Source: Anadara kagoshimensis
Taxonomy: Eukaryota > Mollusca > Bivalvia > Arcoida > Arcidae
Direction: 5' to 3'
Assembly (NCBI GenBank): GCA_021292105.1
Contig: CM037873.1
Span: forward strand, 13,245,489 to 13,309,488
DNA: 64,000 nt
Part shown: positions 1 through 54,404 of the stretch, piece after piece
How the letters are laid out: every line of letters begins with the position of its first letter
Position numbering within the stretch: the first letter of the stretch is position 1
Notes under the pieces: model-generated
Database searches by the model: none
What the model saw: the letters and a program-made list of their open reading frames with translations, nothing else
Told to the model about the DNA's origin: nothing
Program-made: the position numbers and the translations under genes

Positions 1-118
1 AGTTACTAATACATAAATCTACTGGTCCATCATATTTATTTTAAATTAAAGGTCAAACGGACAGGTCAATATTGTTTATATATGCAAGTCCACACGGGTT
101 CCATTTTGTACATGGTTG

Positions 119-500
119 CGATTAGTTTGTTGGTTGAATGTTGCTTAACGTCGCATCAGCAATATTTCAGCTATTCACGGCGAGAACTATTTTTATTAAT
201 CTCTATGGACAAATCTATGAACAAGTGAAGTGCGAGTGTGTTGTATGGCCTGCCTTTTACTAGCGCACACTCAGAACGACTTAAAGGTGCTAGCTCACAT
301 AGTCAGTACGCCACAGACATGGGTACCACTAGAACTCCCCCATTAGCATTATACTGACACCGGATGAACCAGTAAAGGCCAACGGCAAGAATAGTTCACT
401 TCCCCATATGTGGTCTGTGTGAGACTCGAACTCACAGCGGTGAGAGACCCTTGATTTGTAGACAGACGTTTTATTCATTAGGCAACCGCGACCAACGGTT
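119..500 (-). mobile_element. tRNA-derived SINE, type A, left copy
   Basis: On the minus strand the head starts near position 500 with an A-box-like segment (GGTTGCCTAATGGATAAG), followed by a B-box (GAGTTCGAGTCTC), as in a RNA polymerase III promoter. A body of about 300 bases follows, ending in a degenerate CCAACCAA-like tail near 119. The same element lies inverted at 53,776-54,172. The SINE class is inferred from the tRNA-like head; the family was not identified. Confidence 0.7.
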
Positions 501-776
501 ATGTTTGGTTCATGTTTTCAAATTACCATAAAAAATTAAACCTCTTCAGTGGATAAGTGAAAAATTCCCCGAGAAGTGTCATACAGGGGTAGGTGTCCAA
601 ACAACCTACTTTTAATTGTAGGAATCTATGGAACATGAATCAAATTTCTTGTTTGCTCCACATTGATATTTTTGTTATTCTTATTCATTCCCTACTATTC
701 ATTCCCCAAACATTTTGAGTGGCTATAAGAGGTGGCATACAGATCATAGTCCTAACCACGTAGGTTTGAAGCTCAC

Positions 777-1000
777 TTGGATAGTTTGTTAATTGGTGCG
801 TTGCTAGTAAGTACTATTCTTTTTGAACTCCAGTTTCCTCCACCATCCAAGCACTGTCCGCCTCGTATTAGTGAAATGATAAATATCATTGAGCACTCCA
901 TTCAACACATTTCAATATTTTGGAGAAAGAGAAATAACTCGTTTAAATTTAAACGACTTTTTAAAAAAAGTATGAGTAAGTCGACCACGCTTTAGTTGGA
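777..1000 (+). other. Short open stretch, no recognised product
   Basis: A hydrophobic-then-basic open frame without a convincing start (it begins at TTG). The mirrored copy near 53,300-53,510 stays open for only about half the length. No family was recognised. It may be the remnant of a signal-peptide exon or chance; I do not call a gene. Confidence 0.2.
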
Positions 1001-1169
1001 ATTAATTCATATGTATGGTCTGCAAATGACCATTTTGTGAAATTTTCATTACCTGACCAAAATGAACAATTGAAAAATAGAATAAACACACTGACAGTTA
1101 TTTAAATCTTATTACATATTATACCAGCTTTAATACAGCACTAGACGGAATACAATTCCTCATAATTAA

Positions 1170-1480
1170 GGGGTGGTCCAGTTGCTAGAGACCTCACTCC
1201 GTAAGTGGGAGCTCGTTTAAACCCCGACCGTGTCTGACCAAAGACTTGAAAGTGTGTAGTGATTGTTCTTTCGCCAAGCACTCGGAATTACGAAATGAAA
1301 GTCACGGTTCTTTCAGATGGGAACTTTAAATGTCACGATAAAGAACCATGCAAGTGTAATGCCATCAGTGCAATGCATAGGCAAAATTTCCACACGTCTA
1401 CACTTAAACGGGACTCAATTGTATGCAGAACTAAATGAAAAACATTCAGGTAAGTTCAAATTAACTTACCATATTTACTC
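1170..1480 (+). mobile_element. tRNA-derived SINE, type B, left-arm copy
   Basis: It starts with a degenerate tRNA-like head (GTGGTCCAGTTGCTAGAG). A body shared with copies near 28,010, 30,600, 45,195 and 54,850 follows, with the diagnostic segment TTCTTTCGCCAAGCACT. The open frame at 1,317-1,526 lies within the body and downstream and is not a gene. The inverted copy is at about 52,830-53,130. Confidence 0.65.
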
Positions 1481-1529
1481 TTTTGTACCTAGCGACCTTT
1501 ACCAACGCATCCTTGGTTCAAATTGATTT

Positions 1530-2340
1530 ATAACGAACAAATGATAAAAACCAATTAGATAAATGTGTTTCGTCAATATGCATCTTTTTTAATGTACTTT
1601 ATATGGACAAAATCTATCAACATGTTTTCAATCTAAACCAAAATGTAACACTCCATATTCAAATCAGAATTGCAAAGTAAAGATAAAAACTTTGAAAATG
1701 GAAAATTAGGTTAAGCATTTGAACTAACATCAGGGAAATTAGACCATGTGTTCCGGAAGGGTAAGTGTCTCCTGCTTAGCTAGTAGCTACAATCTCGTCG
1801 TGTAAAAACTATAAGACGTCAATTATACATACCCATGATAATTTTAAAAACAGAGACATTATTCTGAGATTAAATAGGCTCAGTTAGAATTTAGAGAAGT
1901 TATTAGTTAACGCACGGACGCATGTATTTTGATAGGCTATAAGCGTAACTGACTGTAGCTAGTTAAACTAACATAACATGACAGGTAAAGCTAGCTAACC
2001 CCTCCAGAACACATAAGACTACAGCAGTAGATTAATTTTGTGTTTACTTGCTTTGTTGTCATTAGAAAGGTTTCCGTAGCCTTCAAGATAAACATTTCCT
2101 GTGTGAGTATCAAAGTTAAATACAGCCGTTAAAGGATTCATTTTCCACTTCTTTACCGGATATTTTTAGGGGTCAACATACCGAAATTGAACTTTCTGGT
2201 ATTTATGTTTGTTTGAATGTAAACAGAAATAGTTTTTTAATACCTCTCTACAATCCTAGGTACATATGACAACTAGATTTAAATAGTCTTTACATCTTGC
2301 ATGGATGTTACTGACACTTAACTTTGTACATGATCTTGGA
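1530..2340. other. Non-coding left-arm stretch
   Basis: AT-rich sequence mirrored at about 51,950-52,760. I see no exon, RNA gene or repeat structure in it. Confidence 0.5.
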
Positions 2341-2346
2341 GAGGAT

Positions 2347-2660
2347 TTATTTTGAGGTGGACTGAACAAAATTGGACAATTGTCTGATAAAATTATCTGC
2401 AAAAAATAAAAAAAACTGATTTGTTGCAAAAACTAACAATCGGTCTTGCGGAATTCCGCAAAACTTGACATTGACCTTTATTTCACATGGCAAGTAAACA
2501 TCATCTTTATGACACAGAGCACAAAATCTATTCCAATACACAAAATTGTTTTTATCTGTCACTGGTAAATCTCTTTCTCGATTTAATTCACAAAGACGTG
2601 TAATGGTTGCAATCTGGAAATCTTCCGGGCACCTGGCTGTTGATCATGGTGTAACTCGTT
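2347..2660 (-). pseudogene. Exon remnant of a cysteine-rich receptor-type ectodomain, left copy
   Basis: The minus strand encodes a CPEDF start, an LCELNRER segment, then NNFVYWNRFCALCH followed by a CEIKV segment. This spacing (CP..., LC..., NRFCALC...) resembles an ectodomain module seen in many mollusc adhesion-GPCR-like and uncharacterised membrane proteins. That assignment is from memory of the family and is not verified. The mirrored exon lies at 51,665-51,910. No neighbouring exons of such a receptor are visible, so both copies look like stranded exons. Its 5' part is caught in a tandem triplication (2,598-2,960). Confidence 0.45.
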
Positions 2661-2960
2661 ACACTGGTGAGAATGGGATTTCGTCTTGTGAGATTCGACA
2701 AATTGTAAATTGATTAATGGTTGCATTCTGGAAATCTTTCGGACACCTGTTGATCATAGTGTAACCTTGTTACACTGGTGAGAATGGGATTTCGTCTTGT
2801 GAGATTCGACAAATTTTAAATTGAATCAAGTGTGTTATTATTTGGATGTTTAATGGTTGCATTCTAGAAATCTTCCGGACACGTGTTGGTCATAGTGTTG
2901 TGAGGTTCGACAAGGTTTAAATTGAATCCAGTGTGTTATTTGTATTTTCTGTTGTGTTTT
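2598..2960. repeat. Three-copy tandem repeat, about 115-130 bp unit
   Basis: Three consecutive copies begin with a TAATGGTTGCAWTCTGGAAA-like start at about 2,600, 2,718 and 2,850 and run through GGGATTTCGTCTTGTGAGAT. The right arm has one copy at about 51,610-51,705, so the triplication is specific to the left arm. Each copy includes the 5' part of the ectodomain exon. Confidence 0.75.
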
Positions 2961-4153
2961 CATAAGTGTTAAAACAAAAGTTCTGATAAATGTGACATTT
3001 GTCATCACACATTCACACATGTACAGTTATTAAAGTGATGCAAAACCAACAGGGTCGTAAATAGATTTACGTTTTTTTTTCAAATTATGTTATGGGTTGG
3101 TCAAGTCTTCAAACTTATCATCACCTTGTTTACCTTGGAATTCGTAATTTAACTGATAATCTGGCTTCATCCACAAGGAACAAGTATATGTGTAAAACAA
3201 TAACAAAACACTCGTTTCCATGTATTTTGTTCTAAAAACGCCAAAATTGGACACCGGGAAAATAAATGATTTTATGTAATATGTATGTTATTGAATCCCA
3301 CTATTAGTCGTTATTTTAAAGGGTAGACAAAAATTCGAGAGCTTATAACCAGTGAATGTCTCTATCGTGCCTAAATATCGCTGTATGTAGCATGTGCCCT
3401 GGAGAATCTGACCCTTCATATTTATTTATAAGTATGATGTCTCTCTATCCAAAGTTATCCTGGATATATTTGGCGTCCTTTAGTTCAATGTTCTTTTCAT
3501 TCCGAGTCAATTTTACAAGTGATGTTATCTAAAGTGTGGGCGCTTAACCATCCGGAGGATCCAGCCAAACTTCAATACCTGGTTGGATTCCACGTGTTGA
3601 ACTTCACTTGACAATTTCTAAGTTTTTACTTTGCTTTGAGATTTAAATGTGGACTCGGGTTGGTGTGTAGTTGTTTTAATATTATTTTTATTTTTATTGT
3701 TAACTGTGCGTTTGACCTTTCATGAGGAATTTCCACATACGTTGGTTCACCTATTAAACGGGTAGTGCAAGAATTCGCTATTCAATAATCAAGTCATGTT
3801 TCGAGTGATATAAATAAAATTAATACCTGTGTTCCTTTTACATAAATGTACTGGTCATTAAAATATCTTAAAGGTCAAGCGGACAGGTCAATGTTGTTTG
3901 CCACTATCTCCATATTGTATATTTTTCTCAAGTCAACAGGGTTATCTCTCTTATGTAGCTAGACCTTGTGGTAAGTCAACAATCGTCTTGATATAACTCA
4001 AATGTCTAATGTTTCTTTGAAGATTTTATTCGAATAAATAAAACAGGATTCAATCAATAAACAATATTTTACAATAATATCAAACAACAACAACCCTTTT
4101 CAAAGCAAATCTAGGCAGACTAACACCTTTTTACCAGTATTGCCATCTACACC
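2961..4153. other. Non-coding 3' flank of the HSPA12-like pseudogene
   Basis: It holds a copy of the AGGTCA-repeat motif (3,872-3,902). On the minus strand it contains a polyadenylation signal for the pseudogene at about 4,030. It is mirrored at 50,490-51,600. I see no coding sequence. Confidence 0.5.
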
Positions 4154-6283
4154 CTAAAACAGCAGCTCGGTGTCACCATATGTCATTGTCACGACAACCT
4201 TTCTCTCCAGACCGCCTGTTGTATCGGGCATATCAACCAACATTTTACCTATTCTTCTACAGTTTTCTTCGGTAACATACTGCGGACTCTTATTATCACA
4301 TCTATACAGAAGAATGGACATTTTTGTCATTTCAGAAGTTAATGGGAAGACTTCTGTTTCTACAGTTTGTCCAACACTAAATGTCTGTCCTGCTTTAGCG
4401 TATATATCAAAAACATCTTTGCAATAAGGTGTGTCTTCATATAGGACATGTTTCGATTGCGGATCATGTCCTTTCATGAAATATCTATGAACGGAAGTAC
4501 CGTAAGTAAACTTCGAGACACGCGCACTTACTACTTCCGGATTATGTCCATATAATACTGCCCCTTTTAGAACAGCTAATCCAGCATCGTCCGGCACAAC
4601 AATATGCATATGGGGAAGCGCTTTTTTCACGCCTTCTCGAATAACTAAACATTCTGAAAACCCTCCAACTAAAATTATGTCTTTCACTTTATCCGTTTCA
4701 GGTTTTGTAAGGATGTTGCGAATATGAGTGACAATTCCCTCAACAGAAGGTTTAAAAAAGTCCGCAACAGCTTCCTCGTTGATTCGCAGCCTGTCCTTTC
4801 TAAAGTCTACGTGTCCAGTGCACTGGCAGTTATAGGATAGAGTGTTATCAGATTTTGTTCCATGTAGGTTTTCAAACTCGTCCATTAAGGTAGTTGGACA
4901 TTTGAGAATAAAACGACCATTTCTATCGAGTTCCAATGACCTTTTCTTTGTCTCAATATCTCGCTCCAAATCTAAACAACAAGATTTGTGATTCTTTAGA
5001 AATTCATCTACCACACTGTCTCCAAATACACTCCTGATAAATTTGAAGATTTCTTCATTTACCCGTAACCCTCCCCAATTTCCACCACTCGCGTTGGTAA
5101 GTTCTTTAAGAGTTCTGTCCTGCAACACTTCCCTCACAGTTACATCAACTGTACCTCCTGAAAAAAATAAAAACAGAGAAGTGTTAAATATAACAGTTAC
5201 TGCATATTTTAATCCTAGAGCTATGGCTATTTTCTGAAGCAATTGGTTCAAATGCATTGTTTACAATCATTACGATGATTTTCTGAAATGTTTTAAAAAA
5301 TTCAATGTCCTCTCAGAGATTACCAGTTATCCGCCTTTATCTGACTTAATAAAGCAAAACATTGAAAAAGGTGTGACCTTGAAGTCAGTCTTAAGTTTGA
5401 AGTTAAGCCAGTGTTAAATGGTGCTTTTAATTTTGAAGTTTGAGTCAGTCTGAAACGGTTAAGTTTGGGGTTAAATCAATCTCAAGTGGTCCTTATAAGT
5501 TTAAAGTTGTGCCAATCACAAGTAGTCCTTCAAATTACAAATTAGCTCAATCTCAGAGGGACCCCAAAGCTTCAAATTGACGTCAATATCAAGTGGTCTT
5601 TTTTATTTTAAAGTTAAGATATTCTCAGGCGGACCCTGTAAGTTTAAGGTTAACTCGGTTTAAAGTGTTTCCTATATATTCAAAGCTATGTCAATTTCAA
5701 ATATCTCCAGTAAATTTTAAAGTAAGTCAAAAGTGGTCCCTGTAAGTTCAAACTTGGGTCAATCTCAGGTGGTCACCAAAAGTTCAATGTGACGCGAATC
5801 TTCAGTGGCCCTTAGGTTTAGGGTTATTTAAATGTATTGTTGCCCCTAACAGTTTAAAGTCAATAACGGTCGGTCCCAGACAGTTCAAAGTTACGTCCAT
5901 CTCAAATGTTCCCTGTAAGTTTAAAATTGAGTATGTTTAAAGTGTCACTTTAAGTTTGAAGTAAGTCGGTCCTAAGAAAGTCCCTGTACGTTTAAATCTA
6001 CGCCAATCTCAAATGGGTCATGTTAATTATTTAAAGTAAAATTTATCTCAAGTGGTCACTGAAAGTCTGAAATTGTCAATTTTATTTTAAACAACAGAGT
6101 TTTATTTATTATTTTTAATTTACCTCCGAGATCCAGCACCATAAACTTAGTTCCTGGAGAGTAAGGAGATAACCCTATGCCATTTTCATCACATTCGTTT
6201 CTCTCTACCAATATTTCTTTAGCATAAATCGAGGCAGCTTCAGGCTCTTAAGCCAATAAGAGTTGATTATCAGATATACTAGC
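4154..6283 (-). pseudogene. HSPA12-like (HSP70 superfamily) pseudogene, exons 3 and 4 only
   Basis: Minus-strand broken copy of the intact gene at 46,583-50,489. Exon 4 (5,157-4,154) keeps an open frame with the GGTVDVTV phosphate-binding motif and VGGFSE adenosine-site motif. Exon 3 (6,283-6,124) keeps its splice sites but carries a TAA where the right copy has TTA (complement of 6,248-6,250). A second nonsense change, GAG to TAG, ends exon 4 at 4,154-4,156, 16 residues early. Exons 1 and 2 are absent because the arm lacks the 7.6 kb block that holds them. Without the first phosphate motif it cannot make a nucleotide-binding domain. About ten residues of exon 4 differ from the intact copy. 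Confidence 0.88.
5380..6080. repeat. Degenerate minisatellite in HSPA12-like intron 3, left copy
   Basis: Roughly 50-bp units vary around a theme of AAGTTTAAAGTTAAGTCAAT followed by CTCAAGTGGTCCCT. It fills most of intron 3. The equivalent array in the intact gene is at 48,560-49,215 in the opposite orientation. Confidence 0.7.
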
Positions 6284-6371
6284 CTTTAAAACAAAACCAA
6301 AAGAAATAAGTATTATAGTTTTCATACACGGGGGATTTATTTTAGAAATTCAAGTTAAATTATGTTAAAAA

Positions 6372-6377
6372 AATCAA
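6372..6377. other. Breakpoint where the left arm lacks 7.6 kb
   Basis: Left of this point the sequence follows HSPA12-like intron 2 (partner near 48,253). Right of it the sequence follows the partner near 40,611. The right arm has 7.6 kb between those points. No long direct repeat is seen at the junction, which suits deletion by end joining, or a matching insertion in the other arm. Confidence 0.7.
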
Positions 6378-6544
6378 GATGTTTTAAACAAGATAAAGTG
6401 GGGACAACTACATGTGTGGAAAGTTTTGTCTTCATATTGTTGGTTTGTTGGTTTTGTCCTCACTAAGAGGGTGATGGAGCTAAAAAATCTGGATATTTCA
6501 AACAGGGTAAAGTGCTGACAACTACATGTAACCTACCATAGATC

Positions 6545-6810
6545 TGGAAGGCTCTCACTGAAATCTAAAGTTAGAGACTGTATCTTAGCCGAACCAACAG
6601 AACCATTGATTTGTGAAGACCACGCAACAATAGCGGAAGACAGGGTTGTTCTTGACCAGGTTGTTTCCTTACTTTCTTCAGTGAGTTTTCTTAATTTTAA
6701 AGGTTCACGCTGTTTAAGTTCCTCTGGGATCGGTACAGGAAATTCTGTCATGGCAAATATCACTCTTATAATGATATGTTTGATTTTTGCAATGGCTATT
6801 TTAAGAAGCA

Positions 6811-6830
<20 letters not shown>
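6545..6830 (+). pseudogene. Remnant exon 3 of the small secreted/anchored protein gene
   Basis: It matches the last exon of the intact gene at 40,026-41,661. The 5' end is cut at the splice acceptor by loss of about 130 bp, and the ATG-less frame encodes a CEDHATIAEDR segment and a hydrophobic C-terminal tail. A one-base loss near the end shifts the frame so that it runs into the CT/CA microsatellite instead of stopping. Exons 1 and 2 are missing, so it is not functional. Confidence 0.75.
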
Positions 6831-6854
<24 letters not shown>

Positions 6855-6861
6855 CATACAC

Positions 6862-6895
<34 letters not shown>

Positions 6896-6900
6896 CACAC
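6816..6900. repeat. CT/CA compound microsatellite
   Basis: A (CT)n run is followed by (CA)n. The partner at 39,952-40,024 is (GT)n then (GA)n. Simple repeats produce the poly-Glu/Arg and Val/Cys translations here. Confidence 0.9.
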
Positions 6901-6939
6901 TTGATCACGATAGTTTTTTTCTACATATTTTAAGGTAAT

Positions 6940-8155
6940 ATTGTCCTTGTCAGTTCATTTTATACTTAAAATAATGTATTTTTTTATTTTTGAATACATT
7001 ATTTCATAAAACTTAGCCCATGACAATAGATGAAGGACATCAGATGCATTAGTTTCTGAAAATATATTAAAACAACAGGTGTTATTTAGTGCCATATGCA
7101 TGCAATTCCCTTGTCAGTTTTTCAGTTTTATCATTCACATGGCAATAGATGAAAAAATTCAGATGTATTGTTTCTGAAAATAAACAATAAACATTTTGCC
7201 AAAACAAGTTTTGCTTTTTAAAAAATCCACAAACATCTTCATGGCTTTGAAAGAAAAAACGGGTGTTGTTTAGTGTCATATACAATTTCCTTTTAACTTT
7301 TATCCTTCAATACATTCCGAAAATGGTATATGACAACAGGCACATGTAAATAGAACGGAGGGGGGATCAGTTACTCTTTCTCACACAAACCCAAGGGTGG
7401 ATTTGAAATAAATAAATATATATATATATATGTATGTATCAATGTCAAATTGGTAAGGTTTAATTTCTCAAGATGATGACACTTGTAAATTTGGTAACGG
7501 ACAAGGGCAGAGTAAAGTTTGCTGTCTACCCAAAGTTGAGTGAAAAGTGTGTTTTACTTTCGAAGTCTAGATATTATCATATACATCCAGGCGGTCAGTT
7601 CTGAGTTTTGTTTGGTGTTAACAATGATAATGCTTGTTTTTCATGATCAACTAACATTTTATAAGTTTTGTAGTGATATGTTATTTATGGAGTTGCTAAA
7701 TAATTTTCTAGGATTTGTTTGAAATAAATTTTGGAGAAAATTATGTAAATATGGGTAAAATAATTTGTCAAGATAAAAACAACTTTAGCAGAATGATGTT
7801 TAATCATGTTTTCAACCATTTATTTTTGTGAAGATTTTAAAAGTGTAATGATATGACAAGTATTAAAGGATATGACCACTTTTAAACATGCACATGGAAG
7901 GTAGTATATATATAAACGCTCATATCTTCACTTGATCGAGTTTGTCCAGTGATCTATAAAGCTTTCGATACATTTTGTCAAAGATAATTTTATGTTCAAT
8001 GAATGAAACATCAGTATCATTTTAGTTGTGATATATCATTTTTTTTTAAATTTAATCATAAAATAAATTCAAAAATGGTATATGACATAGCTACAAATTA
8101 CAATTCTCATCATTTTTTGTGAATAATCTACACCGTTAGATCCATACTTTTTTAT
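6940..8155. other. Non-coding left-arm stretch
   Basis: AT-rich. It includes two diverged copies of a segment of about 200 bases (6,965-7,090 and 7,090-7,320) and a short TA run near 7,415. The partner region is 37,300-39,930, which is longer because of a LINE and expanded simple repeats. No gene is seen. Confidence 0.5.
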
Positions 8156-8336
8156 ACAGTCAAACCTGTCTATAAAGGCCTCCCAAGAGAACCAGTAAAG
8201 GCTTCCTTTATGAGCAGGTGGCCTTTATATACATGTTCAAATAATATGAATAAAGAGCAATTGGTATACAATTCTACTGGTCTTAATAAGCAGAAAGTCA
8301 TCATATAGAAGTGACCTTTAAGGCAGTTTTGACTAT
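8156..8336. mobile_element. MITE 1 with CAGTCAAACCTGTCTATAAA ends, left-arm copy
   Basis: A short element whose ends are imperfect inverted repeats (ACAGTCAAACCTGTCTATAA against a TTTGACT-ending copy). Related copies are at 16,505-16,685, 20,209-20,393 and 37,111-37,290. No transposase is encoded. This indicates a non-autonomous DNA transposon; the superfamily is unknown. Confidence 0.7.
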
Positions 8337-8339
8337 TAA

Positions 8340-9290
8340 ATAACCTGGCTCCAGTTTCACCCTAAGATTTCCTGACCTTAAATTTAGTAATTAATAGTAT
8401 TGGCAATCTTTTTAGTCCTATGAAAGAATATTTTTGTCAGAACTAAATCCAAATATAAACTAGAAGTAATCTTCAAAATAACCGCCTTAATTTTCTGAAT
8501 ACCTTAAAAATTCAAAAAATTATTAAAATTTCAAATGTGTCAGAAGTAAGTTAGGGAAAATGTTAATTAAGAAATGATTGTTAAACTGGGACCTGCATCG
8601 TTAAGAAATGATTGTTAAACTGGGGCCTGCATCGTTATGAAAAGATTGTTAAACTGGGACCTGCATCGTTAACAAATGATTGTTAAACTTGGACCTGCAT
8701 CGTTAAGAAATGATTGTTAAACTGGGACCTGCATCGTTAAGAATTAATTGTTAAACTGGGACCTGCATCGTTAAGAAATGATTGTTAAACTGGGACCTGC
8801 ATCGTTAAGAATTAATTGTTAAACTGGGACCTGCATCGTTAAGAAATGATTGTTAAACTGGGACCTGCATCGTTAAGAAATGATTGTTAAACTGGGACCT
8901 GCATCGTTAAGAAATGATTGTTAAACTGGGACCTGCATCGTTAAGAAATGATTGTTAAACTGGGACCTGCATCGTTAAGAAATGATTGTTAAACTGGGAC
9001 CTGCATCGTTAAGAAATGATTGTTAAACTGGGACCTGCATCGTTAAGAAATGATTGTTAAACTTGGACCTGCATCGTTAAGAAATGATTGTTAAACTGGG
9101 ACCTGCATCGTTAAGAAATGATTGTTAAACTGGGACCTGCATCGTTAAGAATTAATTGTTAAACTGGGACCTGCATCGTTAAGAATTAATTGTTAAACTG
9201 GGACCTGCATCGTTAACAAAAGATTGTTAAACTGGGACCTGCATCGTTAATAACAAATGATTGTTAAACTCGGGCCTGCATCGTTAACCC
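8340..9290. mobile_element. MITE 2 whose 3' end is expanded into a 34-bp minisatellite
   Basis: Bases 8,343-8,590 match the body of a MITE family with long inverted ends that is also seen at 46,965-47,235 and 60,378-60,637. At its 3' end the terminal sequence (AAATGATTGTTAAACTGGGA) is repeated about 21 times with a 34-bp period up to 9,290. Minor variants include GAATTAATT in place of GAAATGATT. The right arm has only about 11 units (36,490-36,890). Confidence 0.8.
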
Positions 9291-9299
9291 CTTACTGTC

Positions 9300-9865
9300 T
9301 ATATATCAACATGTCATGGATTTTAACATAAAACTTTTTTTATGTCAGAAAATATACATGTATCTCTTTTTTACAATAATTATTCTGAATGTACAAACGG
9401 TTTATGGTTTATATATTATGATATACACTGTATAATTTTTATAATTATTATTTTTAATATGTACGATAGAGAGAATGAATGTTTTTACATTTCCGTGCGT
9501 GCGTCTGAAAGTTGTAATATTGTTTTGAAATATGTAAATACATGTATATATCATGATCTTAAGTTCACTATTCAGGAGAAAATAAATTTTATATTTTGAT
9601 ATATCATCTTTTTGTAGAATTATTTTATCGCAGTTTACACGATACAAGATGAGTTTGAATTTAACCAAGACAAAACCGTGGCCACTCTGTATTTCTCTTC
9701 GTAATGACGGTACAGGCCTGTCAAAAGTTTAATATTAAATTAACGATTACTATCAGCAGCATTTCAGCACCTGCTAGTATTTCTTTCAGTCGTTATCTGA
9801 CCACTAGCTATCCATTATTCGACCAAGCAACAGTCAAGTTGACTCCTTTTCGTTAGGTCATTGTT
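9300..9865. other. Non-coding left-arm stretch
   Basis: AT-rich sequence mirrored at about 35,930-36,480. Open frames on both strands here are low-complexity and unconserved in length. No gene. Confidence 0.5.
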
Positions 9866-9869
9866 AAAC

Positions 9870-12270
9870 TTTTGACCGGCCTGTACTGTACACATGATTA
9901 TTAAGGACGATAACGGAATTTGGAGTTCGTGAATCAGAAATAGTAGAATGGTGGTGATTTACCCCCAAGTCAAGATTCTGACTGCCAGATCTGGAATGGT
10001 TAGGGAAACCAAATTGCCCGGCGAAATCTGCCACTGAATCTTCGGCAAGCAAAGAGTCAAACTTTCAAGTAAATACCGACTGGGATTGAAACTTAGGCAG
10101 TGAAAGTCACTGAGGCAGACATACTTCAAACAACTTGCGTCACGGAAGATCCTGAATTGGAAACTCTTGGCATCAGTACGATTGCGACACTCCAAATACC
10201 AAATGACTTCAGTCTTAGTCCTTAACAGAAACTAGTTTTATAGGTATTCGTATATCAAGTGTTTGTTTTTATTTCCATTTGAATTCCTGGTTACATTGCG
10301 TTCTCAATTGGTTTCTAAAAATAGCTAAATGGGTTTTAGCTATAAACCTAAATTTTCGCTCTTCTCTGAACACTGATAATGATCAGCGTAAGCAGAGCGG
10401 TGTTTGGCTGCAAGATACTGCTCTTTGACTATTTCATTGACTCAAGTCATTGTTTTACATGATTCTGTAAGTAGTTTCTGAAAAACTGAAGAAGTGTTAA
10501 CAAGGTAAAGCTGGTTGAACATATTTTGCGTAGAACGCGAAGCGTATTGAACACGTGTACATACAACGTAAAGCTTATTAAACACGTATATATAACGCAA
10601 AGCTTAGAGATCACGTGGGTACAACGTAAAGCTTATTAAACACGTGTGCAAACGCAAAGCTTATTGTACAGGTGTGTATAGCGTTAAGCTTATTGAATAC
10701 GTCTGTACAATGTAAAGCTTATTGAATACATGTGCAAACGTAAAGCTTATTGAACACCTGTATACAATGTAAAGCTGAGTGAACATATTTTGTGTACAAG
10801 CGTAAAGCTTATTGAACACCTGTTTACAACGTAAAGCTGAGTGAACATATTTTGTGTACAAGCGTAAAGCTTATTGAACACGAGTATATAAGGTAAAGCT
10901 TATTGGACTCGTGTATATAACGTAAAGCTTATTGGACACGTGTATATAACGTTAAGCTTATTGAACACGTGTATATAACGTAAAGCTTATTGGACACGTG
11001 TATATAACGTAAAGCTTATTGGACACGTGTATATAACGTAAAGCTTATTGAACACGTGTATATAACGTTAAGCTTAGAGAACACGTGTATATAACGTAAA
11101 GCCTATTAGACACGTGTATATAACATAAAGCTTATTAGACACGTGTATATAACGTAAAGCTTATTGGACACGTGTATATAACGTAAAGCATATTGGACAC
11201 TTGTATATAACGTAAAACGTATTGAACACGATTATATAACGTAAAGCTTAGAGAACACGTGGGTACAACGTAAAGCTTATTGAATACATGTGCAAACGTA
11301 AAGCTTATTGAACACCTGTATACAACGTAAAGCTCAGAGAACACACGGTAACGGAATTTGAAGTTGTTCATGAATCCGAAATAGTAGAATGGTGGTGATT
11401 TACGCCCAAGTAAAGGTTCTAACTGTCAGATCTGGAATGGTTAGGGAAACCAATGTGCCCGGAAAAATCTGGCAATCTTCGGCAAGAAAATATATAGTAT
11501 ATTGTCGACTGAGATCGCACATAGGCAGTCATTGTTATTGTGGTTCGCAGTCCGATAGCTTCAATTTGCGCCACGGAAGCTCCTGAATTGATATTGGAGA
11601 GTCTTTGCGTCAGTTCAATTGCTACACTCCAAATAAAAATGACCTAAGTCCTTAACAGAAACTGGTTTGATAGGTATCAGTATATCCAGTGTTTGTTTTC
11701 ATTTCCATTTGAATTCCTTGTTGCGTTGTGATTTCGGTTAGTTTTATAGCAACTTTAATGGGGTTTATCTATAAATCTAAATTGGCGTTCTTCCCTGAAC
11801 ACTCATAATGATCAGCGGAAGCAGAGTGGTGTTTAGTTGCAAAAGACTGCTCTGACCATTTCATTGTTTTTGCATGATTCCGTATGTAGTTTCTGTATAA
11901 TTTAAAATATTAACCTAGTACATACTCAACATATAAAACAGATATAAACTTATTGAACACGTGTATACAACGTAAAACTTCTTGAACACGCTTATACAAC
12001 GTAAAACTTATTAAACACGTGTATGCAACGTAAAACTTATTGAACACGTGTATGCAACGTAAAACTTCTTGAACACGCTTATACAACGTAAAACTTCTTG
12101 AACACGTGTATGCAACGTAAAACTTATTGAAAACGTGCATGCAACGTAAAACTTCTTTTTTTTTATATTTATTTTCTTTATTTCATATTCAATATATACA
12201 TAACACAAAAAGACGATAATACAACATTACAAATATTTTGATTAACATATATATTGAATAGTTTTTAGAA

Positions 12271-12312
<42 letters not shown>

Positions 12313-42420: not shown

Positions 42421-42424
42421 AAAC

Positions 42425-43130: not shown

Positions 43131-43274
43131 CAGCACCATTAAGTGTTCCTTTTGTCAGTAGGATTGGCAACATTGCAAGGAATAGAGAGCACATATATAT
43201 ACCAGAGATTTGACTCGTCTCCCTACTTATACCCGGCATTAATAAGTTTGAACTACGGCTAATTGTGTAGGGTT

Positions 43275-43283
43275 AACTTATAA

Positions 43284-43326
<43 letters not shown>

Positions 43327-43327
43327 A
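43275..43327. repeat. AATA tetranucleotide microsatellite
   Basis: A pure (AAAT)n run. Confidence 0.95.
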
Positions 43328-43524
43328 GTAGTAAATAGTAATAGTGTCCAGTCAAATTGATCATGACTTACGGGACACTTATGTGGTATGAATTCATTAC
43401 TGTCTCAGCTAAGACAGAAAAAATCGCTCTGTTCAACATAATTTCTAACAACAGTTCAGACCTGTCGACACTAACGGAATAGAGGGAAATGAACTCAGCA
43501 GCTAAGTGGTCAAGATAAGTAATA

Positions 43525-44795
43525 GTTACTAACCGAGTCAGAGGGGTTCATCAATTTGAAACACCTGGGCACGTGCGTTTAGTGATCCCGAACCGCGAAG
43601 CGGTGAGGGATTACGAGCACGTGCCCAGGTGTTTCAAATTGATGAACCCCGACGACGAGGTTCGTAACTGACTTACACGATCACAATAATACAGTTCAAA
43701 ATAATGTGTACAAATGATTAAAAAATGAAATTAATTGTTTAAAATATTTTAGAGTATAACAATAAAAAATCCATATTGTATAATAAATAAATAAAGGAAT
43801 AAATCAAGACTTTGCCAGGTAAATTAAAGAAAATTCATTCATTAAAAAAATACTATAGCCAGTAACCATTCATATAGCAGTTTAAAAATATTGCAATTGA
43901 TTATTTTATTAAAAATACACGATCAAAATCTAGTATTGTTTTCGAAAAAGAGAATCATGAAGGCAGAAAATCATCAAGCAAAAACTCAATATATGTCTCC
44001 CTTTTAACACCTATCAGTCGTAAGTCCTACTCTGGATAGCAAGCCTGCTTGGCAATGAAGAGGTTGTGAGTTCGAATCCCGACTGAAGGTCCTCTTTTTC
44101 TCTTTTTAAATTTTAGAAATAATGCAATGTCATTTCACGCATGAGCGAAAGTTGAAAAACAAACGCACGGAGTTTTTTAATTCCATACACACTGTTCAAG
44201 ATGTCTGACTACAATTCAGACGAAATATTGAGTCAAACATCAATTTCAAAATGATCAGGTTTTTATTACCCAAAATACATATAAATACATAGAAGACTGT
44301 TACGAAGAACAGGCATTTTCAAAATTTTACAAAAAGCTGTAGATGTACGCCCAATGCTTGATGACGGCGGTCCATCTCAAATAAGTGCTTTCACTTATGG
44401 AAATGGAATAGGTACGTATAAATTTGAATTTGTAAAAGAGTATTTAATATATGTCCTCAATTTTAAGTTGTAGGCTAGCATTATACTTGGCTAAAATGAT
44501 CCCCGTCAACATTTGTTTAATACATCGAGCACGAACATACCGATCCGTGTTCAAATTACAATCCCAAAAGCAAATTTTTGTTATGAGAATTAGACTCAAT
44601 AAATTTTTAATGTCATAATTTTTGTATTTGTTGTTTCATTTTGGATATCTCGATTGTCTATTGTTTACTAGCACGTGCCCAGGTGTTTCAAGTTGAACTA
44701 CCCGGTGGTTCAACTTGAAACACCTGGGCACGTGCTAGTAAACAATAGACAATCGAGTATTCAAGTTAGTTACCGACCCGAAGAAAACAAAAGAG
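43525..44795. mobile_element. Candidate element bounded by two related hairpins
   Basis: The first hairpin (43,555-43,650) has perfect arms around CATCAATTTGAAACACCTGG and GCACGTGC, with a 40-base loop that itself pairs (CCGCGAAGCGG). The second (44,655-44,757) has arms of about 47 bases containing GCACGTGCCCAGGTGTTTCA and an 11-base loop. Both share the GCACGTGCCCAGGTGTTTCA core and AGTTAC-type flanks. Between them, the plus strand from 44,200 reads MSDYNSDEILSQTSISK then a stop, and a later segment RRTGIFKILQKAVDV...GNGIG meets a GGTACGT donor. No transposase was recognised. A non-autonomous remnant is likely. Confidence 0.55.
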
Positions 44796-45190
44796 TTATC
44801 GTGTAAGGTTATAAACATGCTACTAGGAGATAGTTAGCAACTCTCTTAAAGATATATCTTACCAGGGACCAAGATGATCTCAAGATTCGTTCATAATTTG
44901 TTATCTTGGTGTCATTTTTAACACCCATGAGTGCCCAACATTATTTCCATTGAGGCATTGGGGCAATTACTGTCGTAATTTTGACAATTCAATTCAATAT
45001 TTTATTTATGACACTAGCCCACCGAACCAAACACTTAAAAGGGTCTCAATGGGCGACTAGTTGAAAGTGTAGGGTTACAAACGGAACGACAGCGTTTCTC
45101 ACCTTCAAGGTTCGAAACAAACTCAGACAGATCTTACTTTCCGTATGACGTTGACTTTCTATAAGGGACGACGGTTTCCTCCGACCACTT
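44796..45190. other. Intergenic, no gene seen
   Basis: AT-rich and unpaired in this window. Confidence 0.4.
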
Positions 45191-45194
45191 CAGT

Positions 45195-45515
45195 AACTCA
45201 TTTAGTAGAATTCTCGCTCCATTTGTTGGAATCGATGTTGTGGGTTCGAACCTCGGTCGGGGTCTAACCTAGACTTGAAAATGGGTAGTGACTGTTCTTT
45301 CGCCAGGCACTGGGCGTTTAGAAATGAAAATCACGGGAAACCTTCGGATTATATCTTAAAAACTGATGCCCGTGCACGTTAAAGAACCCTGCCTGCTACA
45401 ATGTCCTGAACGCACTTCAATTATCAAAATTTCTGTCACTATAGCTGGCGATGTCTCGATATCAGTGACATATTCTTGACTGGGGCATTAATCTTATACG
45501 ACAAACTAACCAACC
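45195..45515 (+). mobile_element. tRNA-derived SINE, type B, upstream of the HSPA12-like gene
   Basis: The head has TAACTCATTTAGTAGAATTC and the B-box GTGGGTTCGAACCTCGG. The body has TGTTCTTTCGCCAGGCACTG and the tail GATGTCTCGATATCAGTGAC then TTGACTGGGGCATTAATC. It lies about 0.5 kb before the predicted promoter of the HSPA12-like gene. Confidence 0.75.
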
Positions 45516-46024
45516 GGATTCCTCCATCATCCTAGAACCGAGTGTAAAGGTCTTGAATTTGTTTTAAAAATATTCCAAAAAAAATATTCAGTAAAATTTT
45601 GTCATATGAACACGATCGAGCTAATCATGTTTATAAATTAAAAAGGAGACCTACTTAATTTAAAAAAGTGGTATATATGACGCTAATATTTGACAAAAGC
45701 GAAAATGATTTAATACACGTTTTTGGATTATGATGTCATATCCTATTTATAGTTTATTGATGTCTGAAAGTGACGGGGAATCCCCATACTGTACCTGTGT
45801 GCAATTACGAGTCTATTTTAGGTCGCACCTTATTTCAGCAATATTAAGACGCAACATTCTTTTATTATATTATCCGTGGTGTATATTAACAAATTTTTGA
45901 TAGAATCAAAACACAAAATGATAACATGTTTAATATCAGAAGTCGCCATCGTGCTGAATAATGCGATTATTTCGTGACCTTAACATGACCTTATGTTACC
46001 TGCGTAGTAATCACGAGTTTGTTC

Positions 46025-46032
46025 TATAAATA
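46025..46032 (+). promoter_or_regulatory. Core promoter (TATA box) of the HSPA12-like gene
   Basis: TATAAATA, about 150 bases before a GAAGGTAAGT donor (exon end 46,174). Transcription would start near 46,055-46,060, giving a non-coding first exon. A first intron (46,175-46,572) follows, containing the GA and CT/TA microsatellites. No clear heat-shock element triplet was seen near it. Confidence 0.5.
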
Positions 46033-46227
46033 GAATATGGTTTTTCCATTACAATCACATAGCTAAGAGAAGAACCTTGTTTTCCGTTACATTTACACAG
46101 GTCGCAGTTTCATGTTTATTTCATTTTGGAAATTGAGATTACATTCAAATGTGAAGAAAACGTTTCAACTGAAGGTAAGTGTTTAATTTTAAATGCTTTG
46201 TGGTTGGATGTGTTGCTGGAATGCAGG

Positions 46228-46228
46228 A

Positions 46229-46303
<75 letters not shown>
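46228..46303. repeat. GA microsatellite in the 5' UTR intron
   Basis: (GA)n of about 37 units. A (CT)n run at 46,452-46,494, followed by (TA)n to 46,540, lies in the same intron, so GA and CT tracts can pair with each other. Confidence 0.95.
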
Positions 46304-46309
<6 letters not shown>

Positions 46310-46446
46310 TGGTGATAACGGTTAGATAAGCAAGGTGATAACGACGGGGCTTCTTTTCACTGTTTGCAGTCGGGGATGGGTAAAGTTATGTTCAGAACCG
46401 GTTGATCATGATATCGCGCGATCGAACCGTGTGGATTAGCCATCAT

Positions 46447-46537
<91 letters not shown>

Positions 46538-46582
46538 TATGAAAGCTATATATGAAAATAAATGTTTTTCAGGTTTGGAAAC

Positions 46583-49500
46583 ATGCCACCGAGAAGTCGA
46601 ATTCCGAAGTTATTAGTAGCTGCAATTGATTTTGGTACCACTTTCTCTGGGTTTGCATACTCGTTTTCTGCTGATTACAAACAATGTCCACTTAAAATAT
46701 ATGCTAAGCGATGGAATTCAGCAGGTAATGCTAGATTTATTTCCCAGAAAACTCCAACGACGCTCCTTCTGAATCCAAACGGAGAATTTGAGGCATTTGG
46801 TTACAAAGCAGAAGAAGATTACAGTGAGCTAGCAGACGATGATCAACATCATGGCTGGTACTACTTCAAACATTTTAAAATGATGTTACATGACAATGAG
46901 GTAAGAAAAACGATAAAAAAGGAACCAGTGCTGAAATTCACCTGTATCTAACATCGGCCTATAACACCTGGCTCCAGCTCACCATCATTCCTTAGCGAAG
47001 ATTTTCCTTAACTTAAAGCTGGCAAATTTTCAAATCTTTATAATTTTGTTAATTTTTCACATATTCAGGAATTTAATTTAAGGAGCCATTTTTGAAGATC
47101 GCTTCAAGCTTAAAACATTTGTATTACATTTGTCAAAAATATTTATTAGTAGTTTCAAAAAAAGATTATCAAAATTTATTCACTTTAATTTAAGGAAAAT
47201 CTTTGCTAAGAAATGATTGTGAAACTTTGACCTAGCTCCAATGTCAAAATTATTGTTTAACTAAGACTTTCCTTGATAAAAAATGACAAATTTATAATAT
47301 TAATAATTTTGGAAATTGTAGGGATTTTTTTAATTTAAGGTGTCATTTTAAATATCACTACAAGCTTATAAAATTTAAAATTTGCAATAAGTTTCGTCAA
47401 AAATCTACATCCATAGAGTTGGCCAAAATTGTGATATTCACATAGTTGGAAAAACCATTAGAATTACAAGTTAGGGTTCGCAGAGGGGGAACACGTTAGA
47501 AGAAATGGTAGTACTAGTACCCCGTTTCAGCAATAACATGTTTTACACATAGTTTATACAAATTATTTGTAGAGTTTGAATCGCCAAACAGAGATCATGG
47601 ACGATCAGGGACACAGTCTGCCAGCCCGTGTTGTATTTGCACACTGTATAAAATATTTGAAAGACGAGCTGCATGACAGTTTAAAAACGTCCGGAAATTT
47701 GGTCAAGAAAGAAGAAATCCAATGGGTTCTTACAGTTCCAGCAATCTGGAGTGATGCTGCAAAACAGTTTATGCGAGAAGCCGCGGTGGAGGTAAATTGC
47801 TTACATTGCTAAGACAAAACATCCTACTCACATACAACACATGCTCAAATCTTATATCATCCATCATCCCTTATAGATTTACAGTGTAGATACTGAGACA
47901 GAAAAAAAAATAAATTAACAATTAATATGTAATAAACTGATTATAAAACTCCCAACTAAGACCTTGGACGAGTACTGGGTATATCGACTCCAATAAAGGT
48001 GACAAATAATATATGGTACCCATGGTGTGATGTTAGTTCCTAATTTATGGTACCCAGTGGTTTGATGTTGGTTTATAAACAATGGTACTGAGTGATGTGG
48101 TGTGGGTACTTAAATAATACGACCAGGTGGTGCAGTGTAAGTGCGGTTGAAAAATGTTTGATGGATCTATACATATAGTATTGTAAACTTCATATCTAGT
48201 TTCATTGGAGTTGCCAATCTAGTCAATTACATTGAAATATGCAAGTAGACAATAATTTTTTTAACATAATTTAACTTGAATTTCTAAAATAAATCCCCCG
48301 TGTATGAAAACTATAATAATTACTTCTTTGTTTTTGTTTTGTAGGCTGGTATACCTGATAATCAACTCTTATTGGCTTTAGAGCCTGAAGCTGCCTCGAT
48401 TTATGCTAAAGAAATATTGGTAGAGAAAAACGAATGTGATGAAAATGGCATAGGGTTATCTCCTTACTCTCCAGGAACTAAGTTTATGGTGCTGGATCTC
48501 GGAGGTAAATTAAAAAATAAATAAATAAAATTCTGTTGTTTAAACTAAAATTGACAATATCAGACTTTCAGTGACCACTTGAGATAAATTTTACTGTAAA
48601 TTAATTAACAGGACCCATTTGAGATTGGCGTAGATTTAAACGTAAAGGGGCTTTCTTGAGATCGACTTACTTCAAACTTAAAGTGACACTTTAAACGTAT
48701 TCAATTTTAAACTTACAGGGAACACTTGATATTGACGTAACTTTGAACTGTCTGGGACCGTCCGAGATTGACTTTAAACTCTTAGGGGCTACAATACATT
48801 TAAATAACCATAAACCTAAAAGCCACTTTAGATTCGCGTCACATTACTAAGTTTGAACTTATAGTGACTTACTTTTAAATTTGAAAGTAACATAGCTTTG
48901 AATATATAGGGACCACTTTAAACTGGGTTAACCTTAAACTTACAGGGTCAGCTAGAGAATGATTAAACTTAAAAATAAAAAGGACCACTTGATATTGGCG
49001 TCAATTTCAGTTTTGGGGAGCATCTAATATTGACTAAATTTTTAACTTACAAGGACCACTTGTGATTGACACAACTATAAACATGCAGGGTCCACTTGAG
49101 ATTGACTTAACTCCAAACTTAACCGTTTAAGACTGACTTAAACTTCAAAATTAAAAGCACTATTTAAGACTGATTAGCTTCAAACGTAAAGGAAAATTTT
49201 TGAGACTGACTTCAATGTCACACTTTTTCAATGTTTGGCTTTATTAAAGTCAGGTAAAGGCGGATAATTGTTAATATCTGAGAGGGCATTGAATTTTGTA
49301 AAACATTTTAGAAAATGATAAAATGTAAACGATTCATTTGAACAAAATGCTCCTGGAAATAGCCAGGACAACCAAGATTAAAATATTGGTAGCTGTTATA
49401 TTTAACAATTTTCTGTTTTTATTTTTTTCAGGAGGTACAGTTGATGTAACTGTGAGGGAAGTGTTGCAGGACAGAACTCTTAAAGAACTTACCAACGCTA

Positions 49501-50489
49501 GTGGTGGAAATTGGGGAGGGTTACGGGTAAATGAAGAAATCTTCAAATTTATCAGGAGTGTATTTGGAGATAGTGTGGTAGATGAATTTCTAAAGAATCA
49601 CAAATCTTGTAGTTTAGATTTGGAGCGAGATATTGAGACAAAGAAACGGTCATTGGAACTCGATAGAAATGACCGTCTTATTCTCAAATGTCCAACTACC
49701 TTAATGGACGAGTTTGAAAACCTGCATGGAACAAAATCTGATAACACTCTATCCTATAACTGCCAGTGCACCGGGCATGTGGACTTTAGAAAGGACAGGC
49801 TGCGAATCAACAAGGAAGCTGTTGCAGAATTTTTTAAACCTTCTGTTGAGGGAATTGTCACTCATATTCGCAACATCCTAACAAAACCTGAAACGGATGA
49901 AGTGAAAGACATAATTTTAGTTGGAGGGTTTTCAGAATGTTTTGTTATTCGAGAAGGCGTGAAAAAAGCGCTTCCCCATATGCGTATTGTTGTGCCGGAC
50001 GATGCTGGATTAGCTGTTCTAAAAGGGGCAGTATTATATGGACATAATCCGGAAGTAGTAAGTGCGCGTGTCTCGAAGTTTACTTACGGTACTTCCGTTC
50101 ATAGATATTTCATGAAAGGACATGATCCGCAATCGAAACATGTCCTGTATGAAGACACCCCTTATTGTAAAGACGTTTTTGATATATACGCTGAAGCAGG
50201 GCAGACATTTAGTGTTGGACAAACTGTAGAAACAGAAGTCTTCCCCTTAACTCCTGAAATGACAAAAATGTCCATTCTTCTGTATAGATGTGATAATAAG
50301 AGTCCGCAGTATGTTACCGAAGAAAACTGTAGAAGAATAGGTAAAATGTTGGTTGATATGCCCGATACAACAGGCGGTCTGGAGAGAAAGGTTGTCGTGA
50401 CAATGACATATGGTGACACCGAGCTGCTGTTTGAGGGTGTAGATGGCAATACTGGTAAAAAGGTGTTAGTCTGCCTAGATTTGCTTTGA
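46583..50489 (+). CDS. HSPA12-like chaperone (HSP70 superfamily), intact
   Basis: Four coding exons: 46,583-46,900, 47,573-47,791, 48,345-48,504 and 49,432-50,489. All have GT-AG introns with phases 0, 0 and 1, giving 584 residues. Residues 14-23 are the AIDFGTTFSG phosphate-1 motif. Exon 3/4 joins to give LDLGGGTVDVTV, the phosphate-2 motif. VGGFSE further on is the adenosine-site motif. WVLTVPAIWSDAAKQFMREA is typical of the actin-like ATPase fold. The long substrate-binding domain of canonical HSP70 and the EEVD end are absent, as in HSPA12 proteins. Expected to be a cytosolic ATP-binding protein; its client is unknown. An AATAAA signal lies 70 bases after the stop. A damaged second copy is at 4,154-6,283. 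Confidence 0.92.
46965..47415. mobile_element. MITE 2 copies in intron 1 of the HSPA12-like coding region
   Basis: A full-length relative runs from CTGGCTCCAGCTCACCATCA to a TTGTGAAACTTTGACCT end near 47,235. A partial second copy follows to about 47,415. Shared body words include CCATTTTTGAAGATCGCTTC and TTTAATTTAAGGAAAATCTT. The ends are degenerate inverted repeats. Confidence 0.65.
48560..49215. repeat. Degenerate minisatellite in HSPA12-like intron 3, intact copy
   Basis: About 50-bp units contain GGACCACTTGAGATTGAC and AAACTTAAA-type spacers. Partner of 5,380-6,080. Confidence 0.7.
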
Positions 50490-51600: not shown

Positions 51601-51664
51601 TTTAACACCTACAAGACGAAATCCCATTCTCACCAGTGTAACGAGTTACACTATGATCAACAGC

Positions 51665-51910
51665 CAGGTGCCCGGAAGATTTCCAGATTGCAACCATTAC
51701 ACGTCTTTGTGAATTAAATCGAGAAAGAGATTTACCAATAACAGATAAAAATAATTTTGTGTATTGGAATAGATTTTGTGCTCTGTGTCATAACGACGAT
51801 GTTTTCTTGCCATGTGAAATAAAGGTCAATGTCAAGTTTTGCAGAATTCCGCAAGACCGATTGTTAGTTTTTGCAACAAATCAATTTTTTTTATATTTTT
51901 GCACATAATT
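51665..51910 (+). pseudogene. Exon remnant of a cysteine-rich receptor-type ectodomain, right copy
   Basis: Reads ARCPEDFQIATITRLCELNR and then NNFVYWNRFCALCHNDDVFL, CEIKVNVKFC and a stop. It is the same exon as 2,347-2,660 with some different residues and without the tandem triplication. The cysteine pattern is kept in both. No adjoining exons were found, so I treat it as a stranded exon. Confidence 0.45.
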
Positions 51911-52830
51911 TTATCAGACAATTGTCCAATTTTGTTCAGTCCACCTCAAAATAAATCATCTCCAAGATCATGTACAAAGTTAAGTGTCAGTAACATCCAT
52001 ATAAGATATACAGACTATTTAAATCTAGTTGGCATATGTACCTAGGATTGTAGAGAGGTATTCAAAAAACTATTTCTGTTTACACTTAAACATAAATACC
52101 AGAAAGTTCAATTTCGGTATGTTAACCCCTAAAAATATCCGGTAAAGAAGTGGAAAATGAATCGGCTGTATTTAACTTTGATACTCACACAGGAAATGTT
52201 TATCTTGAAGGCTACGGAAACCTTTCTAATGACAACAAAGCAAGTAAACACAAAATTAATCTACTGCTGTAATCTTATGTGTTCTGGAGGGGTTAGCTAG
52301 CTTTACCTGTCACGTTATGTTAGTTTAACTAGCTACAGCCAGTTACACTTATAGCCTATCGAAATACATGCGTCCGTGCGTAAACTAATAACTTCTCTAA
52401 ATTCTAACTGAGCCTATTTAATCTCAGAATAATGTCTCTGTTTTTAAAATTATCATGGGTATGTATAATTGACGTCTTATAGTTTTTACACGACGCGATT
52501 GTAGCTACTAGCTAAGCAGGAGACACTTACCCTTCCGGAACACTTGATCTAATTTCCCTGATGTTAGTTCAAATGCTTAACCTAATTTTCCATTTTCAAA
52601 GTTTTTATTTTTACTTTGCAATTCTGATTTGAATATGGAGTGTTAAATTTTGGTTTAGATTGAAAACATATTGATAGATTTTGTCCATATTAAGTACATT
52701 AAAAAAGATGCATATTGACGAATCACATATATTTAATTGGTTTTTATCATTTGTTCGTTATAAATCAATTTGAACCAAGGATGCGTTGGTAAAGGTCGCT
52801 AGGTACAAAACAGTAAATATGGTAAGTTAA
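51911..52830. other. Non-coding right-arm stretch
   Basis: Mirrors about 1,450-2,340. No gene. Confidence 0.45.
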
Positions 52831-53130
52831 TTTGAACTTACCTGAATGTTTTTCATTTAGTTCTGCATACAATTGAGTCCCGTTTAAGTGTAGAAGTGTG
52901 GAAATTTTGCCTATGCATTGCACTGATGGCATCACACTTGCATGGTTCTTTATCGTGACATTTAAAGTTCCCATCTGAAAGAACCGTGACTTTCATTTCG
53001 TAATTCCGAGTGCTTGGCGAGAGAACAATCACTACACACTTTCAAGTCTTTGGTCAGACACGGTCGGGGTTTAAACGAGCTTCCACTTACGGAGTGAGGT
53101 CTCTAGCAACTGGACTACCCCTTAATTATG
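52831..53130 (-). mobile_element. tRNA-derived SINE, type B, right-arm copy
   Basis: Inverted partner of 1,170-1,480. Its GCCAAGCACT-type segment reads TCGCCAAGCACTCGGAATTA on the minus strand. The open frame 52,765-52,974 (minus) is SINE sequence. Confidence 0.65.
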
Positions 53131-53770
53131 AGGAATTGTATTCCGTCTAGTGCTGTATTAAAGCTGGTATAATATGTAATAAGATTTAAATAACTGTCAG
53201 TTCGTTATTCTATTTTTCAATTGTTCACTTTGGTCAGGAAAATGGAAATTTCACAAAATGGTCATTCGCAGACCAGACATATGAATTAATTCCAACTAAA
53301 GCGTGGTCGACTTACTAATACTTTTTTTAAAAGTCGTTTAAATTTAAACGAGTTATTTCTCTTTCTCCAAAATATTGAAGTGCTCAATGATATTTATCAT
53401 TTCACTAATATGAGGCGGACAGTGCTTGGATGGTGGAGGAAACTGGAGTTCACAAAGAATAGTACTTACTAGCAACACACCAATTAATAAACTATCCAAG
53501 TGAGCTTCAAACCTACGTGGTTAAGACTATGATCTGTATGCCACCTCTTATAGCCACTCAAAAGGTCCGTGGAATGAATGGTAGGGAATGGATAAGAATA
53601 ACAAAAATATCAATGTGTAGCAAACAAGAAATTTGATTCATGTTCCACAGATTCCTAAAATTAAAAGTAGGTTGTTCGGACACCTACGCCTGTATGACAC
53701 TTCTCAGGGTTTTTCACTTATCCACTGAAGGGGTTTAATTTTTTATTTTAATTTGAAAACATGAACCAAA
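53131..53770. other. Non-coding right-arm stretch
   Basis: Mirrors 500-1,160. No gene called. Confidence 0.4.
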
Positions 53771-53775
53771 CACAA

Positions 53776-54172
53776 CCGTAGGCCGCGGTTGCCTAATGGA
53801 TAAGATGTCTGTCTACAAATTACGGGTCTCTCGACGCTGTGAGTTCGAGTCCCACACAGACCACATGTTGGGAAGTGAATTATTCTTGCCGTTGGTCTTT
53901 ACTGGTTCACCCGGTGTCAGTATAATGCTAATGGGGGAGTTTTAGTGGTACCCATGTCTGTGGCGTACTGACTAGGTGAGCTAGCACCTTTAAGTCGTTC
54001 TGAGTGTGCGCTTGTACAAAGCAGGCCATACAAAACACCCGCACTTCACATACATACATGAACATGTTCATAGATTATAATCCATTTATCAATAAAAATA
54101 GTTGTCGTCGTGAATAGCTGATACATTGCTGATGCGGCGTTAAGCAACATTTAACCAACCAACTAATCACAA
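53776..54172 (+). mobile_element. tRNA-derived SINE, type A, right-arm copy
   Basis: The head GGTTGCCTAATGGATAAGAT and B-box GTGAGTTCGAGTCCCACA are intact. The body runs through GGTGTCAGTATAATGCTAAT. The tail has GCGGCGTTAAGCAACATTTA and a CCAACCAAC end. Inverted partner of 119-500. Confidence 0.75.
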
Positions 54173-54404
54173 ACATGTACAAAATGGAGCCCGTGTGGAC
54201 TTGCATATATAATCAATATTGACCTGTCCGTTTGACCTTTATTTAAAATGACTATGATGGACCAGTAGATTTATGTATTGGTAACTCAGGTGTTTTTGTC
54301 GTTTTCATCGATAGTACATGTTTTGTTTTATGCAGTAACTGCGCATCCTTGTATATCAATAGTTATAATTAAAGGTCAAGCGGACAGGTCAATGTTGTTT
54401 GTCT

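Follow-up and report, generated by a model that had tools for sequence, protein, structure and literature searches.

The 64,000-nucleotide stretch of the Anadara kagoshimensis genome considered here (the window; assembly GCA_021292105.1, contig CM037873.1, here C17, positions 13,245,489–13,309,488) has inverted copies of the same sequence on its left and right. Either a large inverted duplication is present in the animal, or the assembler has placed two haplotypes of one locus head to head, and a sequence-only reading had posed both possibilities. The assembly comprises 1.115 Gb in 36 contigs. For the analysis, 100 kb was added on each side of the window, giving 264 kb in total, with negative coordinates and those above 64000 lying outside the window. 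All results are derived from the assembled sequence of this one assembly, compared by BLAST chains and probes. They indicate that the left arm (L) and the right arm (R) are probably paralogues, the product of a real inverted duplication in which a segment of 84–88 kb turned inside a dispersed repeat with a loop of 669 bases.

The palindrome and the transposon in its right arm

Self-BLAST of the window revealed a collinear inverted chain joining its left and right parts. Nine blocks, with 12,599 aligned bases in all, differ by 485 substitutions (3.85%), and kilobase-scale insertions and deletions also occur. The likeness is not due to chance, since the chain contains kilobase-long blocks at E = 0. 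This bore out the earlier description of inverted copies with a few percent divergence and large insertions and deletions. The extent given for them, 54 kb with ends at 1 and 54286, proved too small: the chain extends past the window on both sides, to -69311 and 112386. The single-read fold-back was ruled out as an explanation, as the arms differ by ∼4% and carry different insertions.

The right arm is interrupted at 23218–32200 by a young transposon of 8,983 bases, termed element II. Its identification follows from the dispersed copies at 95%–100% identity, the inverted ends of 351 bases and the presence of GATACA on both sides. The terminal inverted repeats, at 23218–23568 (351 nt, forward strand) and 31850–32200 (reverse strand), are 97% identical to each other. 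The 6-base target site duplication, GATACA, lies at 23212–23217 on the left and 32201–32206 on the right (forward strand), as seen by comparison with the empty site. Among the best 40 of 180 candidates, the right end of the element was found in at least 18 places, including its own, with at least 949 bases matched at 95%–100% and the matches stopping at about 32200. Probes from the 8.3 kb spacer proposed by the sequence-only reading likewise gave 99%–100% matches on many contigs (best 40 of 55 candidates). Element II thus has the terminal inverted repeats, target duplication and dispersed copies of a DNA transposon. Its single large open reading frame (ORF), at 29228–30481 on the reverse strand, encodes 417 amino acids with an integrase core, for which the only family match is Pfam PF24764 (rva_4, E 1.4e-30). 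A search of the PDB with this integrase gave no relative at E below 0.1. What had been taken for arm ends at 23,563 and 31,850 is the pair of terminal inverted repeats belonging to this element, and a terminal-repeat search at the ends of the proposed spacer was unproductive.

When element II was left out by script, both arms became continuous through 14213 and 23217, and the inner and outer palindromes that had been described as nested resolved into one. The palindrome as a whole spans ∼182 kb, from -69311 to 112386, with arms of ∼88 and ∼84 kb. The fused chain contains 67,649 aligned columns with 3,071 mismatches (4.5%), falling to 1.7% in the innermost 661. L runs on the forward strand from about -69311 (C17:13,176,177) to 18812, of which 1–18812 lies in the window. 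R, on the reverse strand, consists of an inner part at 19482–23217 and an outer part that begins at 32201, fills the window to 64000 and continues to 112386 (C17:13,357,874). Between the arms lies the loop of 669 bases (18813–19481), and the innermost arm sequences on either side of it, 18152–18812 and 19482–20142, are 98% complementary. Collinear inverted arms with a short spacer are the structure expected of a large inverted duplication.

The turn lies within part of a dispersed repeat (18578–19482), present at 92%–98% identity in at least 39 other places among the best 40 of 4239 candidates. This repeat covers the loop as well as the innermost stretch of L. Its copies elsewhere match only as far as the turn, 19482, and the joint shows no more than one or two bases in common. 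Another dispersed repeat in the arms, at 14213–14581, gave matches of 86%–99% among the best 40 of 147 candidates, and most of the numbered contigs in that list carry it.

A third copy and the choice between duplication and haplotypes

If L and R were alleles, they would be expected to be closer to each other than to any other copy and to remain homologous through their flanks. Neither was observed. Two copies of the arm sequence had been assumed; all six arm probes found three, all on C17: L (+), then R (-), then a further one, T (+). This search scored all 37 of its candidates and skips very common words; the arm probes were run separately from the transposon probes, although 55 bases of one transposon probe were still included. 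T lies ∼0.7 Mb from the palindrome and is oriented as L. The probes at -60300, -44900 and -33700 located it at 13,920,562, 13,928,997 and 13,937,318, and those at -24600, -12000 and 13200 at 13,945,615, 13,964,927 and 14,067,086. Beyond these copies, the arm probes gave one partial match of 79% on C2. A probe adjacent to the HSP70-family gene described below found four full copies, because T holds that piece twice, in A (∼13.985 Mb) and B (∼14.045 Mb).

The fetched part of T, here also called A, was compared base by base with both arms over five aligned blocks. L and R differ at 901 of 18,598 positions (4.84%), L and A at 960 of 18,701 (5.13%) and R and A at 834 of 19,055 (4.38%). Relations along the alignment were examined in 500-column intervals, requiring at least five informative sites and p < 0.001, uncorrected; the minisatellite (about -5826 to -1990 in L), the T-specific insertions and the 7.6 kb region of the gene were left out. 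Sixteen of the 42 intervals were resolved, with the odd one out being L in six, A in five and R in five, and 26 were not. From -1990 to ∼2300, R and A are only ∼1% apart and L and R 1.5%–16%; in other stretches, L and R or L and A form the close pair. Divergence within single tracts reaches ∼20% among the copies. Four-way site patterns show the topology flipping between two blocks, from 39:1 to 1:11. Synonymous divergence (dS) in the last exon of the gene, over 1,041 nt with codons containing stops or gaps left out, is 0.077 for R and L, 0.082 for R and A and 0.092 for L and A. The near-equal distances, the mosaic and the dS values together indicate that L and R are not a privileged pair.

The flanks of L and R likewise depart from what alleles would show. 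Homology between L and R ends at an (AT)n tract (-69311 and 112386), and no collinear homology was found beyond the arms when 30 kb of one outer flank was compared with 51 kb of the other, the longest match among the 15 best being 338 nt. Over these distances, homology is thus limited to the arms. R and T do match at both of the flank points that gave a readable result, each on the R side; other flank probes were uninformative owing to crowding by dispersed repeats. A probe 14 kb beyond R matched C17:13,897,232 in inverted orientation at 100% over about 220 nt (best 40 of 1248 candidates), and a probe 50 kb beyond R had its sole other match, also inverted, at 13,859,344, with 99% identity over 601 nt. 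Because these probes match near T in inverted order, R with its flank and T with its flank probably form a larger inverted pair around an axis at ∼13.634 Mb (13.36–13.63 versus 13.64–13.91 Mb). This larger pair may be a genuine palindrome or a fold of haplotypes; T, correspondingly, may be either a further paralogue or the counterpart of R on the other haplotype. On the other side of the palindrome, the sequence at about -79100 (C17:13,166,382) belongs to another young dispersed repeat, found in many places at 98%–100% (best 40 of 1248 candidates).

The inverted duplication of L and R is thus favored because T is about equally close to both arms, because L-R homology ends outward while probes on the R side match near T, and because the 264 kb around the palindrome contains no gap (no N bases, nor any in 35 loci checked). 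The proposal that the assembler fused both haplotypes of a single locus into L and R appears improbable on these same grounds: T is about as closely related to either arm, the homology of haplotypes should continue past the outer ends, where R instead goes on matching the T side, and no gap marks the join. Furthermore, an overlap of same-strand repeats would not readily produce a turn that links two sites within a single repeat, although the turn does sit in a dispersed repeat, where assembly graphs can tangle. A divergence of ∼4% and presence/absence differences of this size are in keeping with bivalve haplotypes, as far as these are described in the available text of PMC7653742. The earlier remark that the divergence suits haplotypes was therefore correct, but the divergence is not diagnostic. 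The suspicion of haplotypes may instead fit R and T. If alleles have been joined head to head anywhere here, these two would fit best, and L and R would still be a duplication. An assembly path that zigzags would go one step further, with R and T and their flanks being haplotypes joined at ∼13.634 Mb and the L-R fold being the same error made again. In its favor, R and T are the closest pair overall, their probe positions mirror around ∼13.634–13.639 Mb (save for the innermost one, located past the extra sequence of T), the two flank probes match almost perfectly in inverted order, and the copies alternate +, -, +. This path is nevertheless unlikely, if a little less so than a simple join of L and R, as the error is needed twice: were R and T the only alleles, L and R would remain a true duplication. 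The structures of R and T also differ, T carrying the gene piece in both A and B. A separate mobile foldback element occupying the center, 14213–23217, and inserted only in L was also considered; the dispersed repeats at 14213–14581 and 18578–19482 would suit it. It is hardly credible, since the apparent insertion vanishes once element II is left out.

Several observations weigh against the duplication of L and R. The identity of 99%–100% between the flanks of R and T looks allelic, and this part of C17 may contain uncollapsed haplotypes. The L (+), R (-), T (+) order could reflect an assembly path that zigzags. In five of the 16 resolved intervals the closest pair is L and R, and a symmetric mosaic is also expected of haplotypes in a diverse population. 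Some of the most divergent tracts may reflect repeats aligned wrongly. The base-by-base comparison covered only ∼18.6 kb of T, the rest being covered by probes, the interval tests are uncorrected, and the evidence is assembled sequence only.

The HSP70-family gene and other differences between the arms

R contains an HSP70-family gene at 46562–50489 on the forward strand, in four ORF pieces (46562–46951, 47573–47809, 48345–48521 and 49329–50489). Joined by hand, these match the Pfam HSP70 family at 1.2e-12 (47.3 bits; cut-off 20.6). The gene is putatively HSPA12-like. Two pieces of the gene gave no significant relative in the PDB. The copy in L, at 4154–6247 on the reverse strand, is decayed: the first two exons are missing, and in-frame stops are present in the third exon and near the C terminus. 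In R, a 7.6 kb segment (40611–48254) that is absent from L and present in pieces in A contains the gene's first two exon ORFs. Loss from L would be the simpler explanation, because A carries the same piece. The local gene loss anticipated by the sequence-only reading is supported by the two missing exons and the two in-frame stops. Gene copy B (C17:14,053,875–14,054,965) contains five single-base deletions within ∼350 bases of the last exon, which may reflect decay or an unpolished assembly.

The arms also differ in their insertions. A long interspersed nuclear element (LINE) fragment matching zf-RVT is present only in L (12158–12865, reverse strand), with a target duplication of ∼15 bases and an empty site in R. 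Another fragment is present only in R (37634–38845, reverse strand), with an empty site in L; it had no Pfam match and is termed LINE-like on account of its A-run, its target duplication and its likeness to the L fragment. Comparison of the arms further revealed 1.4 kb in L (16754–18151) that is absent from R. A 46-base minisatellite at 56222–58750 has 55 copies in R, extends over more than 7 kb in T and is shorter and more diverged in L. The arrays of a 29-base minisatellite, at 10540–13059 and 33428–35273, are neither equally long nor equally numerous in the two arms. ARAGORN identified no genes and Rfam gave no matches at the gathering score. Among 10 small ORFs searched against Pfam, six had no match, including the gene exon in L.

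Origin of the palindrome and its relation to known systems

The structure of the palindrome suggests how it may have formed. A broken or stalled end could have folded back within the dispersed repeat and been copied, and the (AT)n tract at the outer end would then be where the copy joined other sequence. Comparison shows that the copies have drifted to ∼4%–5% divergence, with LINE-like insertions in one arm or the other, that L lacks the 7.6 kb segment and has a decayed HSP70-family gene, and that the young 9 kb transposon splits R. Ectopic conversion or recombination may have moved sequence among the three copies and so account for the mosaic. A bolder proposal, which we put forward tentatively, is that L (+), R (-) and T (+) are the result of successive germ-line fold-backs, a fossil breakage-fusion-bridge ladder with folds at 13.265 and ∼13.634 Mb, in which exchange maintains the mosaic and feeds gain and loss of the HSP70-family gene.

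Ampliconic palindromes with gene conversion between arms are present on the primate Y chromosome. They resemble the palindrome of A. kagoshimensis in having arms of tens to hundreds of kilobases and mosaic tracts suggesting exchange, whereas the arms here are only ∼95% alike, have no known sex linkage and include a decayed gene in one of them. Fold-back origins of large inverted duplications are treated in PMC10164571, which, in the text available, cites Hermetz 2014 on human cases. Those duplications share with the present one long mirror arms, a short loop and a proposed fold-back at repeats or inverted repeats; unlike them, as far as that text describes them, the copy here is interstitial and ∼4%–5% diverged, and its mechanism is inferred. 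Haplotypic false duplications, in the portion of PMC9516828 available, also place similar copies close together on one scaffold, but here there is no gap, three copies are about equally related and homology ends at both outer edges. For a bivalve assembly, the accessible part of PMC7653742 reports a mean heterozygosity of 1.73% and 36.78% at low, hemizygous coverage. The kilobase-scale insertions and deletions are alike in the two cases; there they distinguish homologous chromosomes, and here copies on one contig.

The locus illustrates that one transposon insertion can make a single palindrome look like two nested ones. Should part of the structure prove to be an assembly fold, the faulty joint would more likely lie at ∼13.634 Mb than at the center of the window, which would guide curators. 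If the duplication is real, it represents an animal palindrome of ∼182 kb, old enough to have accumulated 4%–5% divergence, to have been split by a transposon and to have lost a gene in one arm. Together with T, it would then allow both fold-back duplication and exchange between copies to be tested locally.

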